Shown here: one piece after another, positions 32,687 through 53,655 of the stretch
How positions within the stretch are numbered: the stretch's first letter is position 1
Layout of the letters: each line of letters opens with the position of its first letter
DNA from: Xanthobacter autotrophicus Py2
Lineage (GTDB): Bacteria; Pseudomonadota; Alphaproteobacteria; Rhizobiales; Xanthobacteraceae
Direction: 5' to 3'
Length of the DNA: 64,000 nucleotides
NCBI GenBank assembly: GCA_000017645.1
Contig: CP000781.1
Location: 3,335,501 to 3,399,500 of the forward strand
Notes under the pieces: generated by a model
Database searches by the model: none
Seen by the model: the letters and a program-made list of their open reading frames with translations, nothing else
Told to the model about the DNA's origin: nothing
Made by a program: the position numbers and the translations under genes

Positions 32687-33634
32687 TCACACGCCGCACA
32701 GGCCCTCGCACTCGTTGGGCCAGAGATCGAGCTGGCCGCGATCGCCATCGGTCGACAGGTCGACCTGGTCGAGCGGCACCGCGGAACGGTGGAGATAGAC
32801 GTCACCACGAATCCCCCGGAATCCGGTGCGAATGGCGGCGTCGACCGATACGGCGTCGGCCCAAGCCTCGGGATCGCGGTCTCGCATCCGCCGCCAGTGA
32901 TCGTCAGAATGGAACGGGCAACCGATGCAGGCGCTCTTGGGTGGCAGGGGGTAATCGTGCCGATCCAGCCAGCGCAGGCAATCCAGACGGGTCATGCCTT
33001 GCTCGATGAGCGGCCAGCGGTTGATCTGCCACGGCTCGAACGAAGGCTTCATGCGTAGCACCTCGTCGAGCGAGATCCCGATCCACTGTTCGGCGATGGG
33101 AGCCTTTGGCGAGCGCCGGCCGGCGATGCCGAGCAGCTCGCGGACCTTCCGGCGGATTGGCGCGATCTTGTAGTCGCCGGTGCATTGGCGGCGGATCATG
33201 CCGACTCCGACCCGTTCGGTCGGCACGATGCGGGAGCCGATGGCGACGAGATCACCGTTCTCGTCCTCATCATAGACGGGCAGCTCCGCGCCTGCCGGCG
33301 TCACGGTGCGGGTGAAGGCCGGGATCGAGGCCCATCGCTCGCCGCGCGCGCCGGCGAGAAGGTCGGCGCGCAGGTCTCCGGCCGAGACGATATGGACCGG
33401 GAAGGGCAGGACGTTGGGCGATCGCAGCCAGGCGAGATGCTCATAGACGGCCCTCGGCTCCCAGCCGGTATCGGCGAAGATCGCGCAATCCGGTATGGGG
33501 CCGATCTCGCCATGCGCGGCCATCAGGGCGAGCGTGGTGGACTGGACGCCGGCGCCCAGGCTGAGAACACGCAGGCGGATGGACGCCTGCTGTTCGGGGG
33601 ATGGCGCCAGTGCGGGGAAGACGGGGGCGTTCAT
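32687..33634 (-). CDS. PP-loop phosphoadenosine phosphosulfate reductase-like protein
   Basis: 315 residues from the ATG at 33634, which shares a base with the ardC tail stop. The N-terminal PP-loop LRVLSLGAGVQSTTLALM and the segment DCAIFADTGWEPRAVYEHL match the adenylation fold of PAPS-reductase-like ATP pyrophosphatases. RRQCTGDYKIAPIRRKVRELLG and CIGCPFHSDDHW give conserved cysteines. Phage and ICE proteins of this type lack a known substrate; a link to DNA or tRNA base modification is possible but not shown. It is not part of a visible dnd cluster. Confidence 0.85.
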   Translation of the reverse strand: MNAPVFPALAPSPEQQASIRLRVLSLGAGVQSTTLALMAAHGEIGPIPDCAIFADTGWEPRAVYEHLAWLRSPNVLPFPVHIVSAGDLRADLLAGARGERWASIPAFTRTVTPAGAELPVYDEDENGDLVAIGSRIVPTERVGVGMIRRQCTGDYKIAPIRRKVRELLGIAGRRSPKAPIAEQWIGISLDEVLRMKPSFEPWQINRWPLIEQGMTRLDCLRWLDRHDYPLPPKSACIGCPFHSDDHWRRMRDRDPEAWADAVSVDAAIRTGFRGIRGDVYLHRSAVPLDQVDLSTDGDRGQLDLWPNECEGLCGV

Positions 33635-33852
33635 CACGCCGCCTCCCGTTCGTCGTCGGCCATGCCGACGTCGGCGTCCGGCAGGAAGCCAAGCAGCCAG
33701 TCGGCCGCCCTGCTGGCCTGGGACGCGGCGCGCACGATGGCGCGATTGTCCTCGCGCAGCACTTCGAGCCAGGAGCCGATGTAGTCGGCATGTCGGACGG
33801 TGGGCGTGATGCCGAGCGAAGCGCAGCAGAAAGCGGCGTTGATCTCCGCCAC
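33634..33852 (-). pseudogene. ardC1, 3' fragment (C-terminal part of the interrupted antirestriction gene)
   Basis: The minus strand reads VAEINAAFCCASLGITPTVRHADYIGSWLEVLREDNRAIVRAASQASRAADWLLGFLPDAD, the C-terminus of an ArdC protein. Its missing N-terminal part is at 40676-41413 and ends ...YAFEELVA; joining the two gives an uninterrupted ArdC (FEELVA-EINAAF). Sequence beyond 33852 belongs to the inserted element, which provides a new 19-20 codon N-terminus starting at the ATG at 33912. That ATG overlaps the ardC2 stop, so the fragment may still be translated. Confidence 0.92.
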
Positions 33853-33866
33853 ATATCCTGACAGTC
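33853..33866 (+). repeat. Left terminal inverted repeat of the recombinase element
   Basis: ATATCCTGACAGTC; pairs with 40662-40675 in inverted orientation with 12 of 14 identical bases. Confidence 0.8.
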
Positions 33867-33908
33867 CAGCCCCAATCTGAAATTTTTCCGCAGTCAAGAC
33901 GGACCTAG

Positions 33909-34811
33909 TCATGCTGCCATCTCCTCTGCCTGGGGCTGCTGGGCGTGCATCCAGTCGGCTGCCTGCTGCGCCTTGCTGGCGGCCGTGAAGATGGCCTTGG
34001 GATCGTCCTTCAGGACCTTGAGCCACGAGGCAACATAGGCGGCGTGGTCGGGGCGCGGATGGTGTGCGATTCCCAGATCAGCCAGCACGAGCCCGCTGAG
34101 AATTTCCACGCAGCATTCTTCGGCGGCATAGGCCGCCGATCCGAAGCGGCCGGAAAGATCGCGGTCGAGCCTGTGCTTTGCGCCACTGGCATGGCCGTTC
34201 TCGTGCAGCCACACACCGTAGAATGATGCGGCGTCGCGGAAGGAGGTAAACGGCGGCATGAACACGGTGTCGGCCGATGGACGGTAATAGGCTTCCGACC
34301 CGCCGAACTCAGTCTTGACGCCCAGGTTTGCGATGAATGCTTCCGCATGAGCGAGACGTTCGCCCTCTGGTAGCACAGGAGTCGCCGGGCGCTCGTACCC
34401 GTCCACCTGCGCTATGTTGAAGACAGAAAATGCGCGGGCGAACATCCGGCGATGGTCGTCATCATCGTCATCTTTGTCGGCCTGCCGGGAAGCTTGAATC
34501 TCCCGCCACAACACCACTGTGGTGGAGCGCTCTCCCTCCCGCACCTGCGCACCGGCATCCTGCCATTGCTTGTAGGTGCCCCAGAGGCCATCGCCATATC
34601 CGGCGGCGAAGCCCGCGGCCCAGAGCGCCAGCGTGTTTATGCCGCGATAGCGCTTGCCAGAGGAGATGTTGGTCGGGCGCGCGATGCTGGACCCGTTGTG
34701 GAACCAGGGCGCACGCCATTCGCCAGCACCTTGTTCGATGGCGGCGATGATCTCTGCGGTGACGCGGGAATAGACGTCGGCGCGCTGGACGGATGACGAG
34801 GTATTCCTCAT
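33909..34811 (-). CDS. ArdC-like antirestriction protein (ardC2, element-borne)
   Basis: 300 residues from the ATG at 34811. N-terminal ssDNA-binding region VTAEIIAAIEQGAGEWRAPWF, NISSGKRYRGINTLALWAAG and GERSTTVVLWREI; then ARAFSVFNIAQVDGY; then the metallopeptidase-like motif WLHENGHASGAKHRLDRDLSGRFGSAAYAAEECCVEILSG with an HExxH zinc site. ArdC proteins protect incoming single-stranded DNA and inhibit restriction. It is the last gene of the nested element and is clearly divergent from ardC1 (different insert DKDDDDDDHRR at about residue 125). Its stop overlaps the start of the ardC1 tail frame. Confidence 0.92.
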   Translation of the reverse strand: MRNTSSSVQRADVYSRVTAEIIAAIEQGAGEWRAPWFHNGSSIARPTNISSGKRYRGINTLALWAAGFAAGYGDGLWGTYKQWQDAGAQVREGERSTTVVLWREIQASRQADKDDDDDDHRRMFARAFSVFNIAQVDGYERPATPVLPEGERLAHAEAFIANLGVKTEFGGSEAYYRPSADTVFMPPFTSFRDAASFYGVWLHENGHASGAKHRLDRDLSGRFGSAAYAAEECCVEILSGLVLADLGIAHHPRPDHAAYVASWLKVLKDDPKAIFTAASKAQQAADWMHAQQPQAEEMAA

Positions 34812-35129
34812 TGTGGAATCTCCGCAGCCGGCGGCGCGAGCCTCTCTCGCCCCTTCAACCGACCGCCCGACTCCGGCCGTCCTCTTCCTCTCCTGCCGCC
34901 CGTTCGGGCGGCTGTTCCTGATTTTTTGTCTTGTCATGATTGTTGCTCCTTCTCCGCCGGGGCCTGTCCCGGCGTCGGAGCAGCGGATTGCGATGTCTCA
35001 GGCGCGGCCGCGCACTCGCAGAGCCGAAGCGCGAGCGGAGGACGGCGTCAGCCGTTGCGCGGATGCGTCGGGCATCGCGCGCTCCGAGCACGCCGGGCGG
35101 GCCACCGGCGAAGGAGCACCCAGATCCCC
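34812..35129. other. Leader of ardC2 with partial GA-rich element and hairpin
   Basis: 318 bp between recombinase 3 and ardC2 with no supported gene. Near the ardC2 start the plus strand reads CTCCGC... GAGCCTCTCTCG...TTCAACC, a weaker version of the leader shared by ardC1, ParB and helicase genes. A perfect GCCGCCCG-TT-CGGGCGGC hairpin lies at 34895-34912. A GAAGCGCGAGCGGAGG stretch near 35026-35041 resembles the GAAGCG-rich stretch near 23270-23300. Confidence 0.5.
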
Positions 35130-37304
35130 TCAGGAGCCGGGCGCGGACTGGTCCCTGTCTATGCTGTCGAGGACCGTCTTCGCTCGATCAAGATTCTGCT
35201 GAAGGATGCTTCGTTGAAGCGTGGACAGCCGCTTCTCCTTCAACAGGTCTGCGGCCTCCTGCGCGGACCGCGCCCATGCTGGCCGGTGCATGGAGGTGAT
35301 GCAGGCATTTGGGCAGAGGGTCGGCTGGCAGAGTGCGGTCAGCGGACCTTTGGCTCCGGTGGCCTGCTTCAGGCAGACGGCCGTGCCGGGATCGAAGAAG
35401 CAATCGGCCAGCACGCCGACATGCAAGGTCCGTGCGAGGCTCGCGAGCATGGTTCGCAGTCGGGCACGATCAGCGATCATGGCCGGAAGCGGTCCGAGAT
35501 GGTCCGATACGCTGTCGAGCGTCTTCGCGATACGTGCCGCCGCAGGCCCGGACAGCTTGGCCCCGGCCTGCCGCTCGTCGAAATAGATCAACAGGTCATC
35601 GAGCTGGCCGAGACTACGCTGGCTCTCGACTTCGGCCCGAAAGCCGGATCGGCTGGAGCCGGCATAACCTTCGAACGCCGCGACGGAGGCATGCTTGTAC
35701 TGGATCATGCCGGCGATGGTGCCGAACGGACGGTTGGCGATGTGCCATGCAATCGTGCGCCTGAACTGGCGTGTCGTGATCCGCCAAGGCTGATCACCAG
35801 GCCCATTAGGGACCGCCGGCGTGTCCGGGGTGCCGAACAGGTCGTTGAGGTGGTCGCGGAAGTGATTGAGTTGACGGACGATCTCGGCGGAGAGGTGGTC
35901 CTTGCAAACCGTTTTGGCAGCGAGTACCGGCCAGAGTGTTGGCAGCCCACGGGCGGATGCGGCTCGGAACGACAGGCGTTCCAGAACCTCGACAGCTCTG
36001 GCGACAGGTTCGATGGTGACCCACTCGGCAGGCTCACCCCGGGCGGACTTGCCTTTATAAGCGACGGATCGCACGCGGTGGCGCATGATCATGCCGTCTT
36101 CGCTGCGCGCCAGGGAAAGACACCCACGCTGCATCGCCTGGACTTCGCAGTCCCGCATGCCGGTCAGATAGGCGCAGACGATATAGGCCGCCGATTGCAG
36201 CATGCGCTCTTCCGCCGCGAGAGTCTTGGCGTCGAAACGAGGCCGCCAGGGCTTACCGGTCTCGGGCAGAATGGCGATCAGCGTATCCATACCGCCGGTC
36301 TCGACACCGAGTTCAAGCACGGCAGCTCTGATCTCGCGTGGAGCACCACCCGCGAGTTGAATGTGCATCTTCGGATCGACTTGCGTGTCGATGCCGATAT
36401 GCAGATGAATCAGGTGGGCGTTGACAGGTGGCGACAACTCCCCCGTCGCCGGGTGCCGGAGAAAGGTGCCATTATGGGCGGTGCCCCAGATCGGAACCCC
36501 GCGACCTTCACTGCGAAGCCGGGCGAAATAATCCTCAAGCCGGTTGCGCTGCTCGCGCCGTCGGCCATGACGGTCGAGGGTGCTGTCCCGCTCGATAAGC
36601 ATGGCGCGATGCGCTTCGAGACAATCCATCTCCTCGCGGGCCGTGAAGATATCGGCAGCAAACTCGGTGATGTACCGGATCGACCAGGACAGCAGCGGGG
36701 ATATGATTGGTTCAGGAATACGCGGCGTCCGGTTCTCACGAACGTGACGATAGCCCGCGACGCGCGCAGGTGCGCGTCCGGCCCAAGGTTGGAATGCCAG
36801 GCCGCCAGAGGGAAGATAATCCCGCAAGACATGGAGGTCGAAAGGGATCTCCAGCAAGTGAGCGACGATGATCGGGCGACGGGTACGATCATCCCTGAGA
36901 TGGCGGGCATATCGGTCCAGAAGGGACTGGTCGACCCGGTGTAGATCGACAACGCCAAGTTCATCGCGCACGAAATCGAAGAAGCGCCGCGCGCGGTTGA
37001 ACATCTGCCGGACGCTTCCTGGAGGAAGTATCTTGCGGTGACCGGGCAGATCGACGTTGAGCCGGGCATAGAGAAGTTCGCGCAGTGCCTCGCGGACACC
37101 CACGTCCTCGACCGACGTGAAATGCACGGTGACGTGACAGCGGCGGGCGTTCTCACGAAACACGGCCGGTCCAAGATCCCAGCTTGGATCGCCGTAGCGA
37201 GAGAGGGAATCCCGATCAAACCCAGGCTTCAACGGAGCGGTTGCAAGAACCGGGCGCTGATCGAGTTGCCGGAAGTTGGAATCTGCTGGCGACAATCCCT
37301 TCAT
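35130..37304 (-). CDS. Tyrosine recombinase 3 of the trio (large, with Cys-rich and coiled-coil C-terminus)
   Basis: 724 residues; the start overlaps the stop of recombinase 2 by 4 bp (ATGA). The catalytic region shows CAYLTGMRDCEVQAMQRG (Arg I), SVAYKGKSARGE (Lys), RITTRQFRRTIAWHIANR (Arg II, with Arg instead of the usual His), and IQYKHASVAAFEGYAGSSRSG (His and Tyr). The C-terminal 130 residues add CFFDPGTAVCLK...CQPTLCPNACITS, a likely zinc-binding cluster, and a helical tail LKEKRLSTLQRSILQQNLDRAKTVLDSI. The size and tail fit the third member of recombinase trios rather than a single phage integrase. Confidence 0.9.
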   Translation of the reverse strand: MKGLSPADSNFRQLDQRPVLATAPLKPGFDRDSLSRYGDPSWDLGPAVFRENARRCHVTVHFTSVEDVGVREALRELLYARLNVDLPGHRKILPPGSVRQMFNRARRFFDFVRDELGVVDLHRVDQSLLDRYARHLRDDRTRRPIIVAHLLEIPFDLHVLRDYLPSGGLAFQPWAGRAPARVAGYRHVRENRTPRIPEPIISPLLSWSIRYITEFAADIFTAREEMDCLEAHRAMLIERDSTLDRHGRRREQRNRLEDYFARLRSEGRGVPIWGTAHNGTFLRHPATGELSPPVNAHLIHLHIGIDTQVDPKMHIQLAGGAPREIRAAVLELGVETGGMDTLIAILPETGKPWRPRFDAKTLAAEERMLQSAAYIVCAYLTGMRDCEVQAMQRGCLSLARSEDGMIMRHRVRSVAYKGKSARGEPAEWVTIEPVARAVEVLERLSFRAASARGLPTLWPVLAAKTVCKDHLSAEIVRQLNHFRDHLNDLFGTPDTPAVPNGPGDQPWRITTRQFRRTIAWHIANRPFGTIAGMIQYKHASVAAFEGYAGSSRSGFRAEVESQRSLGQLDDLLIYFDERQAGAKLSGPAAARIAKTLDSVSDHLGPLPAMIADRARLRTMLASLARTLHVGVLADCFFDPGTAVCLKQATGAKGPLTALCQPTLCPNACITSMHRPAWARSAQEAADLLKEKRLSTLQRSILQQNLDRAKTVLDSIDRDQSAPGS

Positions 37305-39088
37305 TGCCGGGCCTCCGGCGGCAGATAAAGCGCATGCACTTCCGCCTCACGGCGGGCTGCGGCAACCATGCTCTCGGGAAATGCCGGCAGAACCTGCCCG
37401 GCAATGCGAGCATGGGCGCGGCCAAACTTCATCGCCCAGTCTGAGGCGGAAAGACTGGCCCGTTGCTCCTCGATAAACTGCTGGAACGCGATGATCGCTG
37501 GCAGCTTGCGCGCGGTGATGACCGCATTGCGGCACTCCAGACAGCCCCAGAACGGTTGCGGGCAAGGTGCCCCCGGCGCCCCGAAGGGACTACGATCAAA
37601 ACCAGAGCATGCCGCCAGCCAAACGTCCTGCTCGCCACGCAGGATACTGTCGCGTTCCTCATGCTCTTCAGGCGCTGCATCGCATTGCCGCCAGGACTCT
37701 TCATCAGCAGGTGCCAGAATAATCGGGGCGGCCGCTGTCACGACCTCCGAAAATGCGTCGGCAATGGTGGCTTCGTGCAGCGGCCGCAGCGAAGGGATAT
37801 CCGCGTAGTGGCGAGCGGCGATCTCTGGCGTATGGCCGATAGCGAAACGGGCCATGTGGCCCTCGGTCTTCAGATACCAGAGCGCCTTGTGGGTCTTGCG
37901 CAAACGGGAAAGAACGAGGCGGAGCGGCTCACCATCGTCATCAACGAGATCATGCCCCTTTATCCATCTGGCTACGAGTTCCTGCTGATGCTCCAGACCT
38001 GCGCGAAGCTGCTTCCGCCCGGTGTAGTAATAGAGCCAAAGGTTCTCGCTCGGCACGAACTGCCGTGTGAATGCCGTTGCCTCGATCAGCTTACGGATCA
38101 GACCGCCCGGTGTTCCGATCCCGCCGTCACGGACGCGAATGCGTTTGTGCTCAGCGCCGCGGGCACGGCGCTTCACATAGGCGATCTCGATCGTGCCGGG
38201 TCCGGGGTTCTGAAGGCAGTCGATCGTCAACGCTTTGCAGCACTCGATCTCAAGGCCGGTCTCCAGTGACATGAAGGTCAGTAGAGGCGGAATATCCATT
38301 GCTCGCAGATGGAAACATGCGTGCAGATCCTCAGCCAGGTTCGAGACTGGAAGACCGCGCCGCAGCCTCATGAAATAGAGGCTCTTGAACGCGCGGTCCC
38401 CACTGCTGAGCCTGCCGGAGGCGACGATCCGGGCATTAGCCTCATCGGTCACTCTGCGAAGGTTGGGATAGTTGTCGTCTTCATCGAGCGGCTTCCCGAT
38501 CCGCCGGAATATCCTGGCGATATCGCCACGGGCAGCGTCCCGAAGCTGCCGCGCGACAAATGGGCTATAGGCGTCACGCGGTCGGGATCGTCCGGCCGAT
38601 TGTGCGCTGGTGTAGCTCAACCGATGACGAACCCCTTCATCCAGAAGGCCAGGCTGGTCGGCGTCGATCGAGCGCAGAGCGAGGATGGCTTTGGCGAGAA
38701 CAGTGTGCCGGTGGATCGGGGTCAACCCGCCGGCTTCGAGGAAATGCTCATACCCATCGATATCGGCTACGCGCAGATCGGTGATCGTCTTGGCCGCGGA
38801 GTGCTCGCGCAGATATGAAAAAAACCGGAGATAAGCCTGCAGATGCTGCTTGATGGTGGTGCGTGCGCCGAGCGATCCGCCAAGCTCGGACTGCCGCCGG
38901 AGGGCACCTGCGAAAGCAACGGCGATGGCTCGCGGACGCTCGCCGACAAGATCAACCTCGACGGTTCCGCCATAGCGCGCCTCGATGTTGAAGCGCAGAC
39001 CGAGCACCGGATCACCGGCGTGCGGGGGAACTGCGCCATCGGCGGGCGCAAAGCGCACCGAGGTTCCCTTGCGCGGACGCCTCCTCAT
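37301..39088 (-). CDS. Tyrosine recombinase 2 of the trio (degenerate active site)
   Basis: 595 residues, overlapping recombinases 1 and 3 by 4 bp each. The fold is recognisable from LLTFMSLETGLEIECCKALTIDCLQ, the Lys-containing YVKRRARG, LVLSRLRKTHKALWYLK and FAIGHTPEIAARHYADI with the Tyr. However, the first catalytic Arg appears replaced by Glu (TGLEIE instead of TGLRxxE) and the HxxR His by Ser, so it may be structural or depend on its partners. The C-terminal end carries CPQPFWGCLECRNAVITARK, similar in style to the Cys cluster of recombinase 3. Confidence 0.88.
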   Translation of the reverse strand: MRRRPRKGTSVRFAPADGAVPPHAGDPVLGLRFNIEARYGGTVEVDLVGERPRAIAVAFAGALRRQSELGGSLGARTTIKQHLQAYLRFFSYLREHSAAKTITDLRVADIDGYEHFLEAGGLTPIHRHTVLAKAILALRSIDADQPGLLDEGVRHRLSYTSAQSAGRSRPRDAYSPFVARQLRDAARGDIARIFRRIGKPLDEDDNYPNLRRVTDEANARIVASGRLSSGDRAFKSLYFMRLRRGLPVSNLAEDLHACFHLRAMDIPPLLTFMSLETGLEIECCKALTIDCLQNPGPGTIEIAYVKRRARGAEHKRIRVRDGGIGTPGGLIRKLIEATAFTRQFVPSENLWLYYYTGRKQLRAGLEHQQELVARWIKGHDLVDDDGEPLRLVLSRLRKTHKALWYLKTEGHMARFAIGHTPEIAARHYADIPSLRPLHEATIADAFSEVVTAAAPIILAPADEESWRQCDAAPEEHEERDSILRGEQDVWLAACSGFDRSPFGAPGAPCPQPFWGCLECRNAVITARKLPAIIAFQQFIEEQRASLSASDWAMKFGRAHARIAGQVLPAFPESMVAAARREAEVHALYLPPEARQ

Positions 39089-40479
39089 AGCGTGGCCTCA
39101 GAAGGGAGCAGCCCAAGGAGTTCCTCGACAGCCGCATCGACGGTATCGGCGCGCGTCGCTATGTGGTCGAGGTAAATATAGGTCGTTGTCAGGCTGGCAT
39201 GGCCGAGAAGCCGTTGCACCTGCTGGAGAGGATCACCGAGCATCTGCCGGTATCCTTCCATCGAGCCGGCAGGAAGCGCAGCGTCACGGATACGGTGCTG
39301 AATGAGCATCGCCAGCATGTGAACGGCAAAGGTGTGGCGGAGCTGGTGCGGGCTGATGTTGATATCTAACCCGAAGGACCGGCACCGGCTGGAGGCGCGG
39401 GCGAAAATGACTTCCCACGAGTTCGGCTGCACCGGCATGCCGACCTCCGAAAGCCACAATGCCGCCGGTTCGCTCGGCGTGCCGTCGCTGTCGCAGACAA
39501 TAATCCGGCAACGTTCCTCGGGGTCGAGCAGATCGAGAGCGATATCCCCACCGTCCAGCAGTCGCAGCCGGGCCGCGTGCCGCTCGCGATGAACGAAGAT
39601 CGGACGGTCGATCGACTGCCATCCTGACCGCTGCTGAAACTTCGTGATGGCATGAGCACGCTCGACATCGACATAGGCGCGCACCTGTTCGAGCAGTCGA
39701 GCGGGAACGAGGATCTGGCGACCGCGATCGCCCTTGGTCTGGGCATCCGGCAGGTCCAGCCAGACCTGACGGCCCGGACGCTGATCGGCGAAAACGAGAT
39801 CGGAGGTGAAGAGGGATGATGCTTCTTCCAGCCGAAGCCCTGTGGTCACGAGGAGATCGGCGAACAACGCATTGCGGATACCGTTGCGATCGCGGGCGCC
39901 GGGGCGTGTGCGGCCGTCAGGCAAAAGCGCCTTGAGGCCGACATCCCGAAAGCGCCGATAGTCCTCGAGCGTGACGAAACTGACGTCCGCTCGACGCGCG
40001 GCAGGTTCATAGGCATCGTTCCGCGCTGCCACCTGCGACCGGCGCCCAGCGTACCCCTGCCTCCAGACCGAGCGATGCGTGAAGGGTGCTTCTGCAATCA
40101 GTCCTTCCTGCACACCCCAGCGATATAGCCGATCGAGACAGGCAACGGCGCGATTCCAGGACGCAGCGGAAATGCGTTGTCCCGCGTCGGCGCGGCGGCG
40201 GACGCGATGATAGGCAAGGACGTCATGCCGGTCGGCTTGCCATATCGTCTTGGCGCAGGCTTCCGAAAGAAAACGAGCCCAGACCAAAACATCGTAGCCA
40301 TAGGCACGAAGGGAATGGCGTGAGCGAACGCCGTTGAGAGGAAGATCGCGAAAAAAGCGATCCAGAGCAGGATCGTATAGCGCCCCGTCCTGGAGGATCA
40401 TCGGGACATGGGCATCAACGCCATCCGCTGATCTGCGCTCCTGAATCGTAATGCTTAGAGCTGCGATTACAATGTCCAC
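39085..40479 (-). CDS. Tyrosine recombinase 1 of the trio (complete active site)
   Basis: 464 residues from the GTG at 40479; ATG 40401 is an alternative and neither has a strong ribosome site. All catalytic positions are visible: VTTGLRLEEASSLF (Arg I), DAQTKGDRGRQ (Lys), NISPHQLRHTFAVHML (HxxR), LLGHASLTTTYIYLDH (His and Tyr). An N-terminal SAM-like core-binding domain covers about residues 45-150. As first gene of the trio operon it is probably the main catalytic subunit. Confidence 0.92.
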   Translation of the reverse strand: MDIVIAALSITIQERRSADGVDAHVPMILQDGALYDPALDRFFRDLPLNGVRSRHSLRAYGYDVLVWARFLSEACAKTIWQADRHDVLAYHRVRRRADAGQRISAASWNRAVACLDRLYRWGVQEGLIAEAPFTHRSVWRQGYAGRRSQVAARNDAYEPAARRADVSFVTLEDYRRFRDVGLKALLPDGRTRPGARDRNGIRNALFADLLVTTGLRLEEASSLFTSDLVFADQRPGRQVWLDLPDAQTKGDRGRQILVPARLLEQVRAYVDVERAHAITKFQQRSGWQSIDRPIFVHRERHAARLRLLDGGDIALDLLDPEERCRIIVCDSDGTPSEPAALWLSEVGMPVQPNSWEVIFARASSRCRSFGLDINISPHQLRHTFAVHMLAMLIQHRIRDAALPAGSMEGYRQMLGDPLQQVQRLLGHASLTTTYIYLDHIATRADTVDAAVEELLGLLPSEATL

Positions 40480-40548
40480 AAGTTGTTCAACCTTCCCCCC
40501 GACCCCCTTCCGGGGAGCCCAGCATCAACGAAGGAGTTCAACTTGCCC

Positions 40549-40611
40549 GGCGCTATCCAGGCCGGCCTCCGCCAGCTATGTGGGAGCGCTGCGGCCGGCC
40601 TGGATAACGCC
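40549..40611. repeat. 19-bp inverted repeat upstream of recombinase trio
   Basis: GGCGCTATCCAGGCCGGCC (40549-40567) and, inverted, GGCGTTATCCAGGCCGGCC (40593-40611) match at 18 of 19 bases with a 25-bp spacer. It lies 70 bp upstream of recombinase 1 and about 65 bp inside the right end of the element. It could be a recombinase binding site, an operator or a strong transcript hairpin. Confidence 0.85.
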
Positions 40612-40661
40612 TCCGTCAGTCCTGTTGCATCGACATCAGCAGCACACTGGCAATCGGTGCA

Positions 40662-40675
40662 GACTGTCAAGATAA
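40662..40675 (-). repeat. Right terminal inverted repeat of the recombinase element
   Basis: Read inward on the minus strand: TTATCTTGACAGTC; inverted partner of 33853-33866. Confidence 0.8.
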
Positions 40676-41413
40676 GGCGACCAGCTCCTCGAAGGCGTAT
40701 TTCTTCGAGCCGAAGCCGCCGGTGAGGTCACGGCCGAGCCGGGAGGCATGGCCGGTCGCGTGCCCCAACTCGTGCAGGGCCGTGCGGTGCCAGTTGATCG
40801 GCTCGAAATATGCCTGGGGCGGCGGCACCTGCACAAAGTCGTGCGCCGGCACATAGAAGGCGCGGTCGCCGCCGATGCGGAAGTCGATGCCGGTCGCCCG
40901 GATTAGGGTCTCGACCCGTGGCTCGATGAGGCCGGGCGGAGGCGGTGGGGCCACAATGGCGACATCCTCCGGCAGTCCGTCGCATTGCGCCGCGTTGAAC
41001 ACCGTGAAGCGCTTGAGGAACGGGATCGCGGCGGCTTCCTCGCCGGTCTCGCGGGCGCGGCGCTTCTCGTCCTCCGGCGTGAAACGGTCGGCATAGACGA
41101 CGGTGGTGCCGTGTTCGCCGCGGCGGACATTGCCGCCAAGCGACAGGGCCTGGCGGAAGGTGAGCCAGCTCTGGCCGGGAAAGCCGTGCTGGATCACCGC
41201 GCCCCAGAGGATCAGCACGTTGATCCCCGAATAGTGCCGCCCGGTCGCGGCGTTTCTCGGCATGGCGAGGGGCGCCTTGACCGAGGCCGATCCCCAGGGC
41301 TGGACCCAGGGGAAGCGGCCCGCCTCCAGCTCGGCGATGATCTTGCTGGTGATGTCGTCGTAAAGGTTCGTCCGGCCGGAGCCGGCACGCCCGTTGCGGT
41401 CGTTCCTGAACAT
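40676..41413 (-). pseudogene. ardC1, 5' fragment (N-terminal part of interrupted antirestriction gene)
   Basis: The frame from ATG 41413 (MFRNDRNGRAGSGRTNLYDD) runs through ITSKIIAELEAGRFPWVQPWG, GINVLILWGAVIQHGFPGQSWLTFRQA, RFTVFNAAQCDGLP and the zinc motif TALHELGHATGHASRLGRDL, then GGFGSKKYAFEELVA at 40676. Element sequence adds Leu-Ser and a stop at 40667. The protein therefore keeps the ssDNA-binding part and HExxH but loses the C-terminal helical part now at 33634-33852. Whether the 248-residue product is functional is unknown. Confidence 0.92.
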
Positions 41414-41570: not shown

Positions 41571-42992
41571 TCACCCCGCTGGCGTCAGTCGCTCGGCACC
41601 GAAGGCATTTACTGCATGGAGGATGTTGAAGGCGACAATCGAGAGAGCCGCTTCGGCCTTTACCGCTCTGAGACCTCGCGTGAGGAACCTTCCGCCGCCG
41701 GACATCCGTTTAATCGTGCCGAAGGGGTGCTCTACAGTACATCGGCGGGTCACCATCAAGCTCGGATCCGCGTAGATTCTGGCCTCCATACGATCCAGCG
41801 CCGCCTGATCGAACAACCGATGGATGGTCCGTTGGGCGCCGGACGTGCATCGGCTCTTCAGCCGACAGTCTTTGCATGCGGGCGTTCTATATCGGATCGC
41901 ACGGTTGCGGGTATGTTTGCCGGATGGTCTCAACGTCTTGCCGGCGGGGCACCGGATTGTGTCGGTCTCCTCATCATACACGAACTGCGCTGGCCGGAAA
42001 AAGTCGGTGCTCATGGCGCCGCGTTTGATCGGCGCCGCGACCTCAATATGGTCGCGCTCGCATTGCGCGACCGCCTGGGCGTTGGAGTAACCGCCGTCGG
42101 CCAGGACTTTGAGCTCGTCAACCTCAAGCACCTCCATCGTCGCCATCGACATTGGATGCAGGAGCTGGCTGTCGTTTGCCTCGTTGGTCACGTCGTGATG
42201 TATGATCAGGCCGCTATCTACATCGACCACGCTTTGCATGTTGTAGCAGGGTGTCTTGGGAGAACGTCCATAGCCCATCGGCCGCGCGTCGGACTCGCCA
42301 AAGACCAAAGCCGTCTCGTCGCGATCCTTCAGGATGTCCTGCCGGCGCACGAGCCTGTCTTTGCGGCGCCCGAGGGTCTCCATCGCAGTGGTGAACGCCT
42401 CCCGATGTTTGGGCTGATCGTCGAACCCCTGGGCCACTGCCTCATCTATGATGTCGAGCCGTTCAAGGTAGTAGGCGATCTCCTTTTCGGTGTGCGCAAC
42501 GTCACGGGCCAGCCGGTCGGCGCCAGCGATGTTCTTTGGGCTCGCGACCGCGCGCATCTTCGTCCCGTCCAGCGCGACCAATCGACCGCTGATCAAGCCG
42601 GTTTCGCGGCAGAACTGGATGAATGCAGCGCTGGCGCCGACAATGGCTTCCGGATTGTCATGACGAAAGGAGGCGATCGTTCGGTAATCCGGGGCGAGCC
42701 GGCGCATTAGCCAAAGCGCTTCGAGGTCGCGGACACACGCTCGTTCCAATTGGCGTGAGGACCGTACCTGGTTGAGGTAGCCCCAGATGTACAGCCGGAG
42801 CATATCGCCTGGATGGTATCCAGGGCGGCCGGTGACCGCAGCGATAGCGCGACCGAAGCCAAGCTCAGCCAAGTTCAAGCTGGTAACAAAAGCATCGACG
42901 ACTCGGACCAATGCGTCCGGGGAAACATAGTCATCAACACAAGGAGGAAGCAGGTTGACCTGATCTCGCGCGAGTCCCTCAATAAAACTCAT
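41571..42992 (-). mobile_element. IS1182-family transposase
   Basis: 473 residues from the ATG at 42992 (MSFIEGLARDQVNLLPPCVDDY). PGYHPGDMLRLYIWGYLNQVRSSRQLER, LAPDYRTIASFRHDN, LVALDGTKMRAVASP, ELKVLADGGYSNAQAV and VEHPFGTIKRMSGGGRF are the DDE-domain landmarks of IS1182/IS1182-like transposases. The frame is intact. I could not identify matching terminal inverted repeats, so the element ends are not given. It separates the ICE backbone (ardC1) from the NO-detoxification cargo. Confidence 0.92.
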
Positions 42993-43158
42993 GCACACCC
43001 CGGCGCGGAAGATGGGAAGATAATTGGATTCTACACTGACAGGTTCATTAGTAAAAGCTTGTTCTTGGCTTTGAACATCTGCGCTAGGCGGCGTAATAAC
43101 TCATTACAGATGTTGCGGGCTTCCGAGAAGGATGAGGTCAGAATCGCCGGGTTCTCCG

Positions 43159-47485: not shown

Positions 47486-48082
47486 ATGATGACACGGCTG
47501 ACCGAACAGATTCTGGCACATGCGACGGGACTGCCCGAAGGCGTCCCCGTGTCCGCCAAGGGCCTGCTCCACCTCGGAAACCGGGCGGCCGTGGATCAGG
47601 CATTGTCGCGCCTGTCGGAGCGCGGGCAGCTCATCCGCGCCGGTCGTGGCGTCTATCTGCGTCCCATCGCCAGCCGGTTCGGCACGCGCGCACCTTCGGT
47701 CGAGCAGGCTGTCGAGGCCCTTGCGACCCAAAAGGGGGAGATCATCGTCTCGAACGGCGCTGCCGCGGCGAACGCCCTTGGCTTGACGACGCAGGTGCCT
47801 GTCCGCTCGGTCTATCTGACCTCCGGGCGCAGCCGAAAGATGCACCTTGGCAAGCAGGTCGTGGAATTGCGGCACGCGCCTCGCTGGCAACTGGCCCTGG
47901 CCAACCGCCCGGCGGGGGAGGCCGTGCGGGCGCTGGCCTGGCTCGGCCCCGAAAGGGCGGAGGCCGCGCTCACGACATTGAAGCGGAAGATGCCGCCCGG
48001 CGTGTTCGGCGAACTGGTCGCCGCCGCGCCGCAGCTTCCGACGTGGCTCGCGCAGAGCGTGGGAAGGGTGGCGTATGGCTGA
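47486..48082 (+). CDS. AbiEi-like antitoxin/regulator (DUF6088)
   Basis: 198 residues from the ATG at 47486 (AGGAGA site). N-terminal winged helix (EGVPVSAKGLLHLGNRAAVDQALSRLSERGQLIRAGRGVYLRP) followed by a C-terminal region SVEQAVEALATQKGEIIVSNGAAAANALGLTTQVPVRSVYLTSGRSRKM typical of AbiEi/DUF6088 type IV antitoxins. It acts as repressor of its operon and antagonist of the nucleotidyltransferase toxin. It overlaps abiEii by 8 bp. Confidence 0.9.
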   Translation: MMTRLTEQILAHATGLPEGVPVSAKGLLHLGNRAAVDQALSRLSERGQLIRAGRGVYLRPIASRFGTRAPSVEQAVEALATQKGEIIVSNGAAAANALGLTTQVPVRSVYLTSGRSRKMHLGKQVVELRHAPRWQLALANRPAGEAVRALAWLGPERAEAALTTLKRKMPPGVFGELVAAAPQLPTWLAQSVGRVAYG

Positions 48083-49091
48083 CGTCTTCCTCCAGCTTTC
48101 GGCCGAGGATCGGCGCGATGCGTTGGGCGTCGCCGCCGACCGCTCGGGCCGTCCGACCCATCTTCTCGAGAAGGATGTGTGGGTGGTGTGGGCGCTGGCG
48201 ACCCTCTACGCCGCGCCGCTCGGTGAACATCTGGTGTTCAAGGGCGGCACGTCGCTGTCGAAAGCCTATCAGGTCATCCGCCGGTTTTCGGAGGATGTGG
48301 ATCTGACCTACGACATTCGGGCGATCGCGCCCGATCTGGTCGGGGACAATGGTGAGGGCCTGCCGAAAACCCGGAGCGAGGAAAAGCGCTGGTCCAGCGA
48401 GGTCCGCCGGCGGTTGCCGGTCTGGGTCGCGGAGGCCGTGCAGCCCGTGATCGCGAACGCGCTGGCCGCCGAAGGTCTGGCTGCGGTCATTCGCGTCGAG
48501 GATGAGAGGCTCTTTATCGACTATGAGGCGACCGCAGCCGGGTCCGGCTATGTCGCGCCCAGCGTCATGCTGGAGTTCGGCGCCCGCTCGACGGGTGAAC
48601 CGGCGAGCGGGCGCGACGTCGTCTGCGATGCGGCCGGCCTGATCGACGGGCTGATATTCCCGACGGCGCGGCCGCGCGTCATGCACGCGGAGCGGACGTT
48701 CTGGGAGAAGGCGACCGCCATCCATGTCTTCTGCCTCCAGGAACGGCTACGCGGCGACCGCTTCGCAAGACACTGGCACGATGTTGTCCGGCTGGATGAA
48801 ACCGGCTTCGCGAACGCCGCTTTCGCCGATCGCGAACTGGCCAACGCTGTCGCCCGGCATAAGGCGATGTTCTTCGCGGAGAAGGCCGCCGACCGCACGC
48901 CGATCGACTATGCAGCGGCCGTCAACGGCGGCTTGCAGCTCGTGCCGGTCGGCGATGGCGCAAAGGCGTTGGAGGACGACTATGCCCGCATGGTCGAGGA
49001 TGGGCTGCTCTTCGATGACGCCGAGCCGTTCGAAGCGCTCATGGCGCGATGTACAGATATAGCTGCGCGGGCTAACCGAATGGGGGCCTAA
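48075..49091 (+). CDS. AbiEii-like nucleotidyltransferase toxin
   Basis: 338 residues. HLVFKGGTSLSKAYQVIRRFSEDVDLTYD carries the GGTSLSK loop and the Asp-x-Asp metal site of the AbiEii (DUF1814) nucleotidyltransferase family; later RTFWEKATAIHVF and RHWHDVVRL are also conserved. AbiE systems cause growth arrest or abortive infection. The pair overlaps by 8 bp, and the OLD-type gene starts 12 bp downstream. Confidence 0.92.
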   Translation: MADVFLQLSAEDRRDALGVAADRSGRPTHLLEKDVWVVWALATLYAAPLGEHLVFKGGTSLSKAYQVIRRFSEDVDLTYDIRAIAPDLVGDNGEGLPKTRSEEKRWSSEVRRRLPVWVAEAVQPVIANALAAEGLAAVIRVEDERLFIDYEATAAGSGYVAPSVMLEFGARSTGEPASGRDVVCDAAGLIDGLIFPTARPRVMHAERTFWEKATAIHVFCLQERLRGDRFARHWHDVVRLDETGFANAAFADRELANAVARHKAMFFAEKAADRTPIDYAAAVNGGLQLVPVGDGAKALEDDYARMVEDGLLFDDAEPFEALMARCTDIAARANRMGA

Positions 49092-49103
49092 AGGGGGGCG
49101 GCG

Positions 49104-50900
49104 TTGAAGATATTCTCGGTAGGGATCGAAAATTTTCGCGGCATCCAGTCGGCCAAACTGGTGCTGCCTGATCACGCCGTACTGATCGGCGACAACAATA
49201 CCGGCAAATCGTCGGTATTCGAAGCGATCGATCTCGCCTTGGGGCCGGACCGGCTGAGCCGGCGACCCCCCGTGGATGAGCATGATTTCTATCAGGGGCG
49301 CTATCTTCCTAGCCCAAACCCCGATGCTCCCGAGGGCGCGGAGCCCGGCCCCGCGCCGAAAATCACGGTCGAGGTGACGATCACCAATCTGTCGCCGGAG
49401 CAGGAGGCACGATTTGGAGCCAACGTCGAGTGGCTGAATACTACTACCGGAGACTTCTATCAGGAGGCCAACCCGGCTGGGGTCGATGCTGCCGAGATCA
49501 AGGCGGCGCTGCGCGTCACATTCGTCGGCCAATACGATCCCGATGAGGATGACTTCGTCGGCAACAGCTATTTCACGCGCAGCCTTTCAGAGGATGAGAC
49601 ACCTGCATCGTTCTCGAAGAAGGACAAGCAGCACTGCGGATTTCTTTTCCTGCGGTCGTTGAGGACAGGATCTCGGGCGCTCAGCTTGGAACACGGCAGC
49701 CTGCTGGACATCATCCTCCGGCTGAAGGAAATCCGGCCGCAGATGTGGGAAGGGACGATCGGAACGCTCGCAGCCTTCGATGTCGCGAGCGACCCGTCCA
49801 TTGGCATCTCAGGCGTGCTCGAGAGCATCGACAAGTCGCTGAAGAAATACGTCCCGCGCGAATGGGGAGTGAAGCCGCACCTAAAGGTGTCGAACCTGAC
49901 GCGCGAGCATTTGCGCAAGGTCATCACCGCGTTCATCGCCACGGGTGCGGGCGATCATGCCGCTCCCTTCTTTCGGCAGGGAACAGGGACGATCAACATG
50001 TTGGTGCTCGCGATGCTGTCACAGATCGCCGAGGACAAGCAGAACGTCATTTTTGCGATGGAGGAAGCCGAAACGGCGATTCCGCCATACGCGCAGAAGC
50101 GGATTGTCCATGAGCTTCGCAAGCTGTCGGCGCAGTCGATCTTCACGTCGCACTCGCCGTATGTGCTCGAAGAATTCAGCCTCGACGAAACCGTCATCCT
50201 CTCGCGATCGGACAATGGCCAACTGAGCCAATCCAAAATCGAGTTGCCTGAGAGCATCAAGCACAAGCGTTATCGGCAGGATTTCCGAACCCGATTTTGC
50301 GAGGGGCTTCTTTCGCGCCGAGTTCTCATCGCCGAAGGCGCTACGGAGGCGACCTCCTTCCCGGTCGTCGCGCGGCGACTGGCCGAGCTCAACCCGGCTG
50401 CTTATGCGTCTTTGGAAGCCTTGGGCGTCTGCGTGATCGACGCCGGAAGCGAGACCCAGATCGCCGACCTTGGAGCGCTGTACAAAAGTCTTGGGAAACG
50501 GACCTTTGCGTTATGCGACAAGCAGACGGATGCCGCCAAGGTGGCCATAGAAGCCCAGGTGGAACGCCTGTTCATGCACGACGAGAAGGGTATTGAGGAT
50601 CTGATCCTCAAGAACACCACCCAAGCGGCCCTGGAGCGGTTTGCCGATCAGCTCGATTGGCCACAGCATCTGCTCGCGAAATACCCCGACCCAAAAGCTC
50701 AGGCTGCTGCCGCGCTCGGGGCCTATTTCAGCTGGTCGAAAGGCAATTGGGGAATCGCTGAGTTCTTGGCACAGTGTTCCGAAGCTGAGATCCCGCAGTG
50801 GCTACGGGATGCCTGCGTCACCCTGAAGGCACTGTGTGATCCGCCTCTACAGCCAGCCGAGCCCGAACCCGAAGACGATTTTGCTGACCTGTTAGGATAG
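49104..50900 (+). CDS. OLD-family ATP-dependent nuclease (GajA-like)
   Basis: 598 residues from a TTG start at 49104 (AGGGGG site). The ABC-type ATPase half shows IENFRGIQSAKLVLPDHAVLIGDNNTGKSSVFEAI, GTGTINMLVLAMLSQI (signature), VIFAMEEAETAIPPYAQ (Walker B) and IFTSHSPYVLEEF. The C-terminal Toprim half has VLIAEGATEATSFPVV, GVCVIDAGSETQ and FALCDKQTDAA. This order matches class 2 OLD nucleases such as GajA of Gabija. A UvrD-like helicase gene follows after 9 bp, the defining Gabija pairing. Divergence from characterised GajA cannot be judged here. Confidence 0.9.
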   Translation: MKIFSVGIENFRGIQSAKLVLPDHAVLIGDNNTGKSSVFEAIDLALGPDRLSRRPPVDEHDFYQGRYLPSPNPDAPEGAEPGPAPKITVEVTITNLSPEQEARFGANVEWLNTTTGDFYQEANPAGVDAAEIKAALRVTFVGQYDPDEDDFVGNSYFTRSLSEDETPASFSKKDKQHCGFLFLRSLRTGSRALSLEHGSLLDIILRLKEIRPQMWEGTIGTLAAFDVASDPSIGISGVLESIDKSLKKYVPREWGVKPHLKVSNLTREHLRKVITAFIATGAGDHAAPFFRQGTGTINMLVLAMLSQIAEDKQNVIFAMEEAETAIPPYAQKRIVHELRKLSAQSIFTSHSPYVLEEFSLDETVILSRSDNGQLSQSKIELPESIKHKRYRQDFRTRFCEGLLSRRVLIAEGATEATSFPVVARRLAELNPAAYASLEALGVCVIDAGSETQIADLGALYKSLGKRTFALCDKQTDAAKVAIEAQVERLFMHDEKGIEDLILKNTTQAALERFADQLDWPQHLLAKYPDPKAQAAAALGAYFSWSKGNWGIAEFLAQCSEAEIPQWLRDACVTLKALCDPPLQPAEPEPEDDFADLLG

Positions 50901-50909
50901 GCGATTACT

Positions 50910-52736
50910 GTGGTCGACCTAACAGAAGCGCAGAAGGAAATTCTACAAGCTGTCGGGCATCAACTCGTCACCGGCGGTCCCGGTTCGGGGAAGACTACCG
51001 TCTCTATCCTCAAAGCGGCCAAGATCGCGCGGGAGGAATTGAAGCCAGGACAGCGCATCCTTTTCCTCAGCTTCGCGCGTGCAACCGTTTCGCGCGTGCT
51101 GGAGGCAATCGACGAAGAAAGCGCAATCACGCGAGAGGAGAGGCAACGGATCGAGGTCGATACCTACCATTCGTTCTTCTGGCGCATCCTTAAAACGCAC
51201 GGCTACCTTGTCGGCTTTCCACGACGGATGACGATCCTCACGCCTCCGAATGAGGCGATTGCATTGTCGGCGGTTCGAAGCGGCTACAAGGCGGCCAAAA
51301 ATCTGTCGGACGAGGAAAAGGCTGAGAAGCGCGCGAAGGAGGAAGCGGAGCGTGTCCGGCTGGCGACCGAAGAAGGGAAGGTCTGCTTCGACCTCTTCGC
51401 AGACCGCGTGGCGACCCTGCTTCATGGCTCAGATAAGGTTCGAGCGCTCGTCTCTACGATGTATCCGTACATTACCCTGGACGAGTTTCAGGACACCAGC
51501 GCCGATCAATGGCGAGTGGTCCAAGCCCTCGGCGCCAACAGCACGTTGATCGCTCTTGCCGACCCGGAGCAGCGCATATTCGATTTCATCGGCGCCGATC
51601 CGGAAAGGCTGAACCACTTCAAGGCCGATTTCGCGCCGACGGTCCACGACCTTGCCGGTGACAACCATCGGAGCAAGGGGACGGAGATTGCCCTATTCGG
51701 CAACGACATCCTGACCGGCAATTTTCGGCAGAAGGAATACCAGGGTATCGGCTACGCGCCGTTCGCGTCGAACCCCAACCAAGCTTATGCTTCACTGGTT
51801 GGCCAGGTGTTGCAAGCCCGGAAGCGCTTGGTTGAGTCTGGCCGGCGTGACTGGTCGTTGGCCATTCTCGTGCCGACCAAGAAAATGACGCGGATGGTGT
51901 CTGACATCCTGCGCGAGCCATTCGGTAATGTTCCGTCGATTTCTCACTCAGCAGCAGTTGATATGGAAGGCCCGATCCTCGCCGCAGAGATCATTGCTTT
52001 CCTGCTCCAAAAGTGCGGGCATGACGGAAGTTTCGACGAATTTGTCGAGTTGATGTGCAGCTATTTTCACGGTCGAGGAGGCACGGCGCCGACCAAGGGC
52101 GACATGGACGAGGCTGCGCGGTTCCGGAAGGCGCTGTCCAAGTGGAACGAATGTCTAGCGAAAGGACGAACAACGCCTGGTAACAGCGTCTTGCAAGGAA
52201 CCTTTGCCGTGCACCAGGCAACTGCCGCACTGACATTCACAGGTGATCCGGATGCAGATTGGGTCTCGGTGCGCGACGTTCTGGATACTGGGGCCTGTGA
52301 GCGACTGAAGGATGTCGCAAAGGACGTCCGTAACGTGCGTCTGCTTGAGCGCGGTACGCAGCTCCGTCAGGGGTTGGCGCAGGACTGGCGTGACGTCGGC
52401 CGCTATAGCAACGCCCTTGCGATCACCCGCCAGTCGTTTGTTCAGGAGCATTTCGCAACAGCCCACAAGCCTGAATCCGGCGTCGTGGTGATGAACATGC
52501 ACAAGGCGAAGGGAAAGCAGTTCGACGAGGTTGTGATCTTTGAAGGATGGCCAAAACGGTTCAAGGGCGAAATCGTGGCCAATCCTGACCGGATCGTCTT
52601 CGGCAATGTCCACGACGGGGTGATGACTCAGGCGCGTCAGAATTTTCGGGTCAGCATCACGCGCGCAAAGGCACGCACGACGATCATGACACCAAGGGAT
52701 GATGTCTGTGTTTTGCTCAGACCCGTACCGGCATGA
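50910..52736 (+). CDS. UvrD/Rep-like superfamily 1 helicase (GajB-like)
   Basis: 608 residues from the GTG at 50910. Motif I TGGPGSGKTTVSIL, Ia ILFLSFARATVSRVLE, II YITLDEFQDTSADQW, III TLIALADPEQRIFDF, and C-terminal VVVMNMHKAKGKQFDEVVIFEG and NFRVSITRAKARTTIM give a complete SF1A helicase. It is longer than the roughly 500 residues usual for GajB, with an acidic/basic insert near residues 135-150 (SDEEKAEKRAKEEAERVR). Close coupling with the OLD nuclease supports a Gabija-like defence role. Confidence 0.9.
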   Translation: MVDLTEAQKEILQAVGHQLVTGGPGSGKTTVSILKAAKIAREELKPGQRILFLSFARATVSRVLEAIDEESAITREERQRIEVDTYHSFFWRILKTHGYLVGFPRRMTILTPPNEAIALSAVRSGYKAAKNLSDEEKAEKRAKEEAERVRLATEEGKVCFDLFADRVATLLHGSDKVRALVSTMYPYITLDEFQDTSADQWRVVQALGANSTLIALADPEQRIFDFIGADPERLNHFKADFAPTVHDLAGDNHRSKGTEIALFGNDILTGNFRQKEYQGIGYAPFASNPNQAYASLVGQVLQARKRLVESGRRDWSLAILVPTKKMTRMVSDILREPFGNVPSISHSAAVDMEGPILAAEIIAFLLQKCGHDGSFDEFVELMCSYFHGRGGTAPTKGDMDEAARFRKALSKWNECLAKGRTTPGNSVLQGTFAVHQATAALTFTGDPDADWVSVRDVLDTGACERLKDVAKDVRNVRLLERGTQLRQGLAQDWRDVGRYSNALAITRQSFVQEHFATAHKPESGVVVMNMHKAKGKQFDEVVIFEGWPKRFKGEIVANPDRIVFGNVHDGVMTQARQNFRVSITRAKARTTIMTPRDDVCVLLRPVPA

Positions 52737-52758
52737 CTCAAGCCTCTGGGTATGAAGG

Positions 52759-53655
52759 ATGACGACATCTTCTGATCATCTGGAGTCCATGGCGCAGACG
52801 CTAGAGGCTACCGGGGATTATCGCGTCATCCGGCGTCTTAAGCCGCGTCCATCCAATATGCCGTCTCCCGCAACGCCCGTCCGACTCGGCATGGTGGTGG
52901 ATGTCGAGACCACGGGGCTAGATCCCCAGCGTGACGAGATCATAGAACTCGCCATGACGCCATTCAGCTACGGCTTGGATGGCACCATTTTCAGCGTGGG
53001 CGACAGCTTCCAAGGGCTGCGTCAGCCGAGCGAGCCTATCCTCCCGGAAATCACCGCGATCACGGGCATCACCAACGAGATGGTGGCCGGCCAGATCATT
53101 GATCCCGCCGTGGTGGCCACATTCGCGGCGCCGGCTTCACTCTTCATCGCGCACAACGCGGCGTTCGACCGCCGCTTCTTTGAACGATTCAGTGACGTGT
53201 TCTCGACGAAGCCGTGGGCATGCTCGCTCAGCCAGATCGACTGGGCGGCGGAAGGATTTCAGGGCGCGAAGCTCGCCTATCTCGCTCAGGCGGCCGGCTT
53301 CTTCTATGACCGCCACCGCGCGATGCACGACTGTCTTGCGACGATCGAGCTGTTGGCGATGCAGCTGCCCCGATCTGGTGTTACGGGCCTTAGCCGCCTT
53401 CTGGATGGTGCTCGTACTGTCTCCTGGCGCATCTGGGCGGAGAACTCGCCCTTCGACCTCAAGGATGTTCTCAAGGCGCGGGGATACCGCTGGAACGGCG
53501 ATCCCGGCCCGCATCCCCGCGCTTGGTATATCGACGTTCCCGAAGCCCAACGCGAGGCCGAGGTGCGGTTCTTGAGCACGGAGATCTATCGGTATGAGGT
53601 CGATCCCCCCGTCCGGCGGATCGATGCCTATGATCGGTTTTCAGATCGCATCTAA
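52759..53655 (+). CDS. DnaQ-like 3'-5' exonuclease
   Basis: 298 residues. ExoI motif MVVDVETTGLDPQRDEIIELAM, ExoII SLFIAHNAAFDRRFFERF and ExoIII DRHRAMHDCLATIELL complete a DEDDh exonuclease. The C-terminal domain DVLKARGYRWNGDPGPHPRAWYIDV is found in a subset of stand-alone DnaQ-like nucleases. It follows the helicase by 22 bp in the same direction, so it may be a third component of the defence operon. The ATG at 52789 (TGGAG upstream) is an alternative start. Confidence 0.9.
   Translation: MTTSSDHLESMAQTLEATGDYRVIRRLKPRPSNMPSPATPVRLGMVVDVETTGLDPQRDEIIELAMTPFSYGLDGTIFSVGDSFQGLRQPSEPILPEITAITGITNEMVAGQIIDPAVVATFAAPASLFIAHNAAFDRRFFERFSDVFSTKPWACSLSQIDWAAEGFQGAKLAYLAQAAGFFYDRHRAMHDCLATIELLAMQLPRSGVTGLSRLLDGARTVSWRIWAENSPFDLKDVLKARGYRWNGDPGPHPRAWYIDVPEAQREAEVRFLSTEIYRYEVDPPVRRIDAYDRFSDRI

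Follow-up and report, generated by a model that had tools for sequence, protein, structure and literature searches.

The stretch of DNA analysed here, called the window, comprises 64,000 nt of Xanthobacter autotrophicus Py2 (contig CP000781.1, positions 3,335,501-3,399,500, forward strand), and in it an antirestriction gene, ardC, is split by an insert that carries three recombinase-type genes and an ardC of its own. We think it probable that this insert is a site-specific transposon of the Tn554/SE type that has ardC as its target, leaves a footprint by copying, and carries a recoded ardC as cargo. A first-pass annotation, made from the sequence, had described the interrupted gene; beyond that description, we find that insertion at this site is recurrent and that the target site is missing from the cargo ardC.

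The annotation placed the cut after YAFEELVA (40676) and the resumption of the gene at EINAAFCC (33846), and both positions are exact. The 5′ part of the host gene (40676..41413, minus strand), ending in YAFEELVA, matches the Pfam domains ArdcN and MPTase-PolyVal, with 40667-41413 corresponding to positions 2-82 of the latter's profile, while the 3′ part, from EINAAFCC to the stop codon (33634..33846, minus strand), matches MPTase-PolyVal from 81 to 126 and is 95.8% identical to the ArdC of L085 (L-numbers are the labels of fetched loci, hereafter rows). Between the two parts lies the 6823-bp element core (33853..40675, minus strand), bordered on either side by a 6-bp word: GTCGCC on the left (40676..40681, minus strand), which supplies the Val-Ala codons and represents the native spacer of the target, and GTGGCG on the right (33847..33852, minus strand), an imported footprint. 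As for the claim that the insertion destroys the gene, the gene is certainly cut, but "destroys" may be too strong, as the truncated host protein retains the entire ArdcN domain, and an R388 ArdC with the metal-ligand mutation E229A is reported to support conjugation into P. putida like the wild type in the passages of PMC7213743 cited here.

The terminal inverted repeats of 14 bp are imperfect, as had been stated: TTATCTTGACAGTC on the left and ATATCCTGACAGTC on the right (reverse complement) are equal at 12 of 14 positions. The 21-bp left end TTATCTTGACAGTCTGCACCG (40655..40675, minus strand) recurs unchanged in 26 of the 40 left ends of the relatives that we class as A-type, and the 21-bp right end ATATCCTGACAGTCCAGCCCC, inverted with respect to the left one (33853..33873, plus strand), recurs in 15 of 41 right ends. 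The first 14 bp of the right end, ATATCCTGACAGTC, are kept in 40 of these 41, including an insertion outside ardC (L023), and the exception, L025, reads TTATCCTGACAGTC. The borders of other copies were thus compared with those of the window, and near relatives have the same ends.

Relatives were sought with the first recombinase, YR1, which has matches in 117 plasmid records at 1e-30 and in 177 at 1e-15. At E <= 1e-60, a class-wide search found the Py2 genome alone among 385, and an order-wide search found three other genomes among 397. We worked with 50 rows, made up of 15 genome-contig loci, 28 plasmid regions hand-picked out of the 117 to 177 plasmid records, 3 species genomes, and the 4 elements of the Py2 genome itself. 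In 38 of the 44 rows with a readable left border, the element sits in ardC, just after the codons of the metal ligand E229. For 37 of these, similarity to ArdC reaches the border (weakly in L016, E 9e-5), and L015 was assigned through its right flank and the motif; L011, L022, and L027 represent one single insertion, so there are at most 36 distinct insertions in ardC. Six rows with an unreadable left flank (L010, L012, L014, L017, L020, and L021) were not counted, although three of them have ardC at the right. The 37 A-type left borders, which include two outside ardC (L023 and L025), share the consensus GARGARYTN-RTNGCN, where G, A, G, A, T, and C are invariant at positions 1, 2, 4, 5, 8, and 14. 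Two of the rows, L010 and L014, are whole contigs of 6821 and 6850 bp, each almost exactly one element, as would be expected from an assembler collapsing several identical copies.

Host-type ArdC matches PDB entry 6i89 at 6e-60, and on this alignment the site follows E228, E229, L230, I231, and A232. We take 6i89 and 6sna to be the R388 ArdC of PMC7213743. In that protein, the metal ligands are H201, H205, and E229, and H205 is oriented by E228, according to the passages of PMC7213743 cited here, which do not describe ArdC as a target of insertion. Since the site maps to E228-A232 and includes the metal ligand E229, the recombinases would read the codons of a strongly constrained catalytic motif.

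The Py2 genome consists of two contigs of 5.3 and 0.32 Mb (C1 and C2), and YR1 is found in it three times at 100% and once at 48%. A search for the 33853-40675 segment at other sites, which the annotation had suggested, returned the 6823-bp core with zero differences at about 594 kb of C1 (L005) and about 203 kb of C2 (L006). The three identical cores sit in three different ardC genes at the same codons, and their left flanks read GAGGAGCTG-GTCGCC in the window, GAGGAACTG-GTCGCC in L005, and GAAGAGCTG-GTGGCG in L006. A fourth, diverged element (L007 with L039) occupies a fourth ardC, again at the same codons, with the 3′ part of that gene following its right end (88%). Among the 12 matches to PF18818 (E <= 1e-8) in this genome, the four native ardC genes appear solely as pieces (profile positions 1 or 2 to 82 or 83, plus 81-126), and the four whole domains are all cargo copies. 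Homologous recombination alone was rejected as the means by which the element spread, given that the flanks beyond the 6823 bp differ between copies, but it may have swapped flanks later in L032, L043, and L054. In the neighbourhood of L005 there are an integrase gene upstream and a gene for a type IV secretion system coupling protein downstream. The fourth element is about 12.7 kb long (C1, about 887-900 kb) and holds its own ardC together with an open reading frame (ORF) that, judged by eye, resembles a fused MerBA; the 6 bp at its right, CGCGCC, are also those at the left of L041, an element that sits in another gene.

Uninterrupted versions of the gene exist, as the first-pass annotation had proposed to verify. 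One, 97.7% identical to that of the window over 825 bp, is on the Niveispirillum plasmid CP025613 (L085), and an alignment without interruption crosses the site in 27 of 31 loci, the others being the window itself and three alignments that end short; L095 and L080 are further empty sites. The left word of the window, GTCGCC, is found at the empty sites of L085 and L095, and its right word, GTGGCG, equals the left word of the L006 copy. More generally, the left and right words differ in 30 of 34 A-type rows. The native side could be determined for three insertions, each with an empty-site relative whose 60 bp to either side are at least 97% alike: the native word is the left one in L009 and the window, is one base off the left one in the fourth Py2 element, and is the right one in none of the three. 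An insertion in ligD (L023) has as its right word ATCGCC, which is also the left word of L026, the other copy in the same strain. The left word of L023 is likely, if with weak support, native: PDB polymerase domains align with the protein through EEL, and two of the three alignments shown reach one residue into the left word (S versus D).

The same relation between words recurs across strains that have several copies. Ten such strains provided 24 fetched copies, one of them lacking a right end, and for 14 of the other 23 the right word is found as the left word of another copy, a number that was reached in 0 of 20,000 permutations (mean 3.6); when Roseovarius, in which all words are equal, is left out, the match is found in 12 of 21. 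The 6-bp footprints constitute a legible record of parentage among copies. For Py2, the words are consistent with an order of copying from a source with ATCGCC to L006 on the small contig, from there to the window copy, and finally to L005, the last step being weak because GTCGCC is the commonest word.

The insert's own ardC (33909..34811, minus strand) is intact, as the annotation had it. It encodes 300 amino acids with ArdcN and a full MPTase-PolyVal domain, has EECCVE in place of EELVAE, and likely starts at 34811, as annotated in a relative, rather than at 34937. A cargo ardC is present in 38 of the 50 rows, and all 25 unique cargo sequences form one clade (support 98/91, recovered in 98% of bootstrap trees), whereas the 23 host rows of sufficient length are scattered over the tree, 11 label changes being needed. 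None of the 38 cargo proteins has the target motif EE[LI][VI]A; both glutamates are retained. The site takes eight forms in them, EECCVE, EECSVE, EECLVE, EECTVE, EEATAE, EELTAE, EEICAE, and EEACAE, and of the 120 sequences closest to the window cargo, 114 have EECCVEI, four have variants of it, and two do not match the pattern. By comparison, EE[LI][VI]A is found in 23 of 26 intact ArdC domains of a class-wide sample (30 loci were returned, and four were dropped, namely two Py2 cargo copies and two partial matches) and in 8 of the 9 intact ArdCs that the tree places with the cargo clade. The cargo of L034 is 90% identical to that of the window and its YR1 68%, which indicates that cargo and recombinases are separable. 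Some elements carry extra cargo, such as mer or ars genes and other ORFs; in L014, the place of ardC (about 5600-6800) is taken by an ORF resembling, by eye, a DnaB-type ATPase.

The annotation had also described three overlapping tyrosine recombinases. Neighbouring ORFs of the trio do overlap, by 4 bp each, and YR1 (39085..40479, minus strand; 464 amino acids) is surely a tyrosine recombinase, with a match to Pfam Phage_integrase at 2.9e-14 and the residues R216, H378, R381, H427, and Y436, of which the first three and the tyrosine are invariant across 14 sequences and H427 nearly so. The assignment is weaker for its two partners, for which nothing scores above the cut-off in Pfam. YR2 (37301..39088, minus strand; 595 amino acids) is a putative recombinase-fold protein in which Glu280 replaces the first catalytic arginine (Arg-I) and R397, H419, and Y428 are retained, and YR3 (35130..37304, minus strand; 724 amino acids) is a large recombinase-like protein with R384, R515, H538, and Y547. 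Profile searches of both in Pfam, NCBIfam, and PDB gave nothing useful, and hhalign found no profile match of either to YR1. When low-confidence models of the two were searched with Foldseek, no significant match was obtained; no recombinase was among the best 50 matches listed for YR2, and Cre was listed for YR3 at E 3 and 7.5, which is not significant. On a second comparison, weak matches to recombinase folds stood out for the YR2 model, and the YR3 model gave weak matches to XerA and Cre mixed with unrelated rows. The motif residues, which are partly kept, and these faint fold matches point weakly to recombinases. Between YR3 and the cargo ardC, the window holds only an Arg-rich ORF of 78 amino acids (34855-35091). 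Between the left end and YR1, there is a 24-nt inverted repeat, 88% complementary and with a 15-nt loop (40549-40611), which could be a regulatory or recombination structure; a similar hairpin was seen by eye in L010 and L014.

In the mechanism that we propose, the trio would recognise the stretch of ardC coding for the glutamate helix (E228-E229-L-V-A, which includes the third metal ligand), and recombination would take place across the 6 bp coding for Val-Ala. YR1 to YR3 would form a circle containing the donor's left 6 bp while the donor copy stays in place, as has been proposed for SEs, and the circle would then integrate at another ardC so that the carried 6 bp come to lie at the right and the target's own 6 bp at the left. 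With no donor site repaired, each insertion would cost one ardC, a loss that the carried gene would make good. The cargo gene, which has other codons at the crossover, would probably supply ArdC after the native gene is cut and be a poor target itself, thereby combining rescue with immunity. Since ardC is a gene of plasmids and of integrative and conjugative elements (ICEs), an element without transfer genes would keep landing on mobile DNA and travel along with it, and such hitch-hiking may be the selective reason for the choice of target.

Several observations weigh against this reading, at least in its simplest form. Six of the 44 insertions lie outside ardC (L018, L023 in ligD, L025 in a hypothetical gene of a pTi plasmid, L038, L041, and L042), and the flanks of L041 and L018 gave no match when searched for a host gene. 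In L025, the element of pTiLBA1190 interrupts a hypothetical gene that reads IEELRAEMN, although an ardC of the target type lies intact 3 kb upstream. Of the 117 plasmid records with a YR1 relative, 60 are predicted to be conjugative and 16 mobilizable, but 41 are predicted to be non-mobilizable. Twelve of the 50 rows have no full cargo ardC (it is truncated in L033, and some right ends were not reached), and so the cargo is not essential. Finally, the cargo form EELTAE (L028-L030) is near the target form, and 3 of the 26 sampled intact ArdCs read EELTAE, EELRAE, or EELCAE; with such near-target and shared forms, the recoding of the cargo may be drift in one old clade.

The role of the cargo ardC can be read in two ways. 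It may be that the element homes to the active-site codons of ardC, is unable to repair the gene because it copies itself out, and for that reason carries a captive, recoded ArdC that is not cut, as a replacement for the one it breaks, which would amount to a parasitism of conjugative elements that goes on until every native ardC is occupied, as in the Py2 genome; we hold this to be a serious possibility, if somewhat short of an even chance. With the same element and target, the cargo ardC could instead be an ordinary passenger, a member of an ArdC subfamily that by chance lacked the target motif, picked up once and protecting the element on its entry into a new cell rather than standing in for the cut gene, and to this we give a nearly even chance. 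That the cargo forms one clade suits a passenger, because all 38 cases would follow from the motif having been lost once in an ancestor, as do the mer genes, ars genes, and other ORFs carried elsewhere in the family and the rows that have no full cargo ardC. Against it, this clade shows eight forms of the crossover codons, none of them the target form, nearly all of the intact ArdCs that group with it retain the motif, and in Py2 the native ardC genes were found all cut and only the cargo whole.

Other explanations concern the mode of movement and the choice of site. We regard it as unlikely that the element moves by conservative cut-and-paste, like an ICE or a phage, with copies multiplying only when plasmids move and the differences between borders arising from heteroduplex repair in either direction. 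This would agree with GInt circles, which carried 6 nt of either flank (reported in the part of PMC5385486 cited here), and with the mutual 6-bp matches of L029/L030, L024/L043, and L045/L046, which one-way copying alone does not fit; in one of the strains concerned, CFD-2, homology between the flanks suggests later recombination between copies. It sits poorly, however, with three identical copies in one genome and with native words that, in the three insertions where an empty site reveals them, lie at the left (two exact matches and a third one base off) and never at the right. A chance hotspot, in which ardC draws many elements because it is common on plasmids and no target is recognised, would account for the group II intron reverse transcriptase genes at another break of element-bearing ardC genes (L031, L032, L035, L036, and L043) and for a small set of three recombinases (313-331 amino acids) at another ardC break (L045), and these neighbours do indicate that ardC draws several kinds of mobile DNA. 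For the present family, we reject it as highly improbable, because the insertions in ardC fall at one identical base position with invariant bases around it, and the ligD insertion shows the same GAGGAACT core.

Among known systems, the SE and GInt families were compared by gene order, footprint, and description. With SEs the element shares an ordinary recombinase followed by a protein lacking catalytic residues and then by a large recombinase-like protein, imperfect terminal inverted repeats, few selected targets, the absence of transfer genes, and a footprint, also found here, in which the 6 bp that flank the donor on its left end up at the right side of the new insertion. SEs differ in having four core genes, intA-tfp-intB-srap, an arrangement that the present element lacks: in L034 (6531 bp), which holds the trio and ardC, 51 nt separate YR3 from ardC and about 56 bp follow ardC, which leaves no room for a fourth gene, and in the distant L038 an ORF of 124 amino acids follows YR3. 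SE circles are reported to contain the 6 bp of the left flank only and to form without leaving an empty site. The word antirestriction is absent from the main text of the SE paper. The parts of that paper cited here (PMC10214605) report SEs from Gammaproteobacteria and no homologues of Tfp or Srap in Alphaproteobacteria, and they tell of the 6-bp left-to-right footprint for SEs and for Tn554. The latter resembles our element in this footprint and in target specificity (PMC10214605, same parts), but it has two recombinases plus TnpC and comes from Staphylococcus and Enterococcus; its gene set was not found here, where the long ORFs of recombinase type number three and a TnpC-like gene would have no room.

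GInts resemble the element in having three recombinase-type genes at one end with cargo behind them, a staggered overlap of 6 nt, and a single target gene (ssb) that is common even to distant members, as described in the passages of PMC5385486 cited here. They differ in their ginABCD organisation, in which ginD is essential, whereas L034 has no room for a fourth gene, and in their third protein, which lacks the first Arg, whereas here Arg-I is lost in YR2 and present in YR3. Putative gin operons have been reported in Alphaproteobacteria as well (same passages of PMC5385486), while the later SE paper, in the parts cited above, found no ginC-ginD block there; some trios of the present family may already be among the reported operons. 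RIT elements, which have three tyrosine recombinases between inverted repeats, are similar in layout, but membership was rejected, since their proteins measure 315-410 amino acids and their repeats 34 bp, against 464, 595, and 724 amino acids and about 14 bp here. RIT elements are not known to carry cargo. The gamma-mobile-trio was also rejected, as YR1 scores 20.2 against GmtY (NF040693), for which the cut-off is 340.

We found no description of a transposon that targets ardC, or of a recoded ardC as cargo, in the open-licence text of PubMed Central, the only literature searched, which agrees with the annotation's remark that this strategy had not been described. What emerges is a family of transposons whose address is a gene typical of plasmids and ICEs and which mostly carries a replacement without that address, and thus a testable natural case of target recoding and, perhaps, of rescue. 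It brings to Alphaproteobacteria a footprint of the Tn554/SE type, told for Gammaproteobacteria and Firmicutes in the parts of PMC10214605 cited here. It also explains the clusters of integrase, hypothetical, integrase, and zincin-like genes on sphingomonad, rhizobial, and roseobacter plasmids, including pNL1.

As regards the surroundings of the cut gene, the window contains conjugation-type genes (TrbL, TraG, and a relaxase) and a replication initiator gene. Immediately upstream of the cut ardC there is an IS1182-family transposase gene (41571-42998), which may influence the expression of the truncated host protein. Further on, the region 48075-55381 holds genes for an AbiEii-type nucleotidyltransferase (48075-49091), a UvrD-like helicase (50910-52736), and a phage-type integrase (54140-55381), which might together form a defence cassette close to where the ICE ends.

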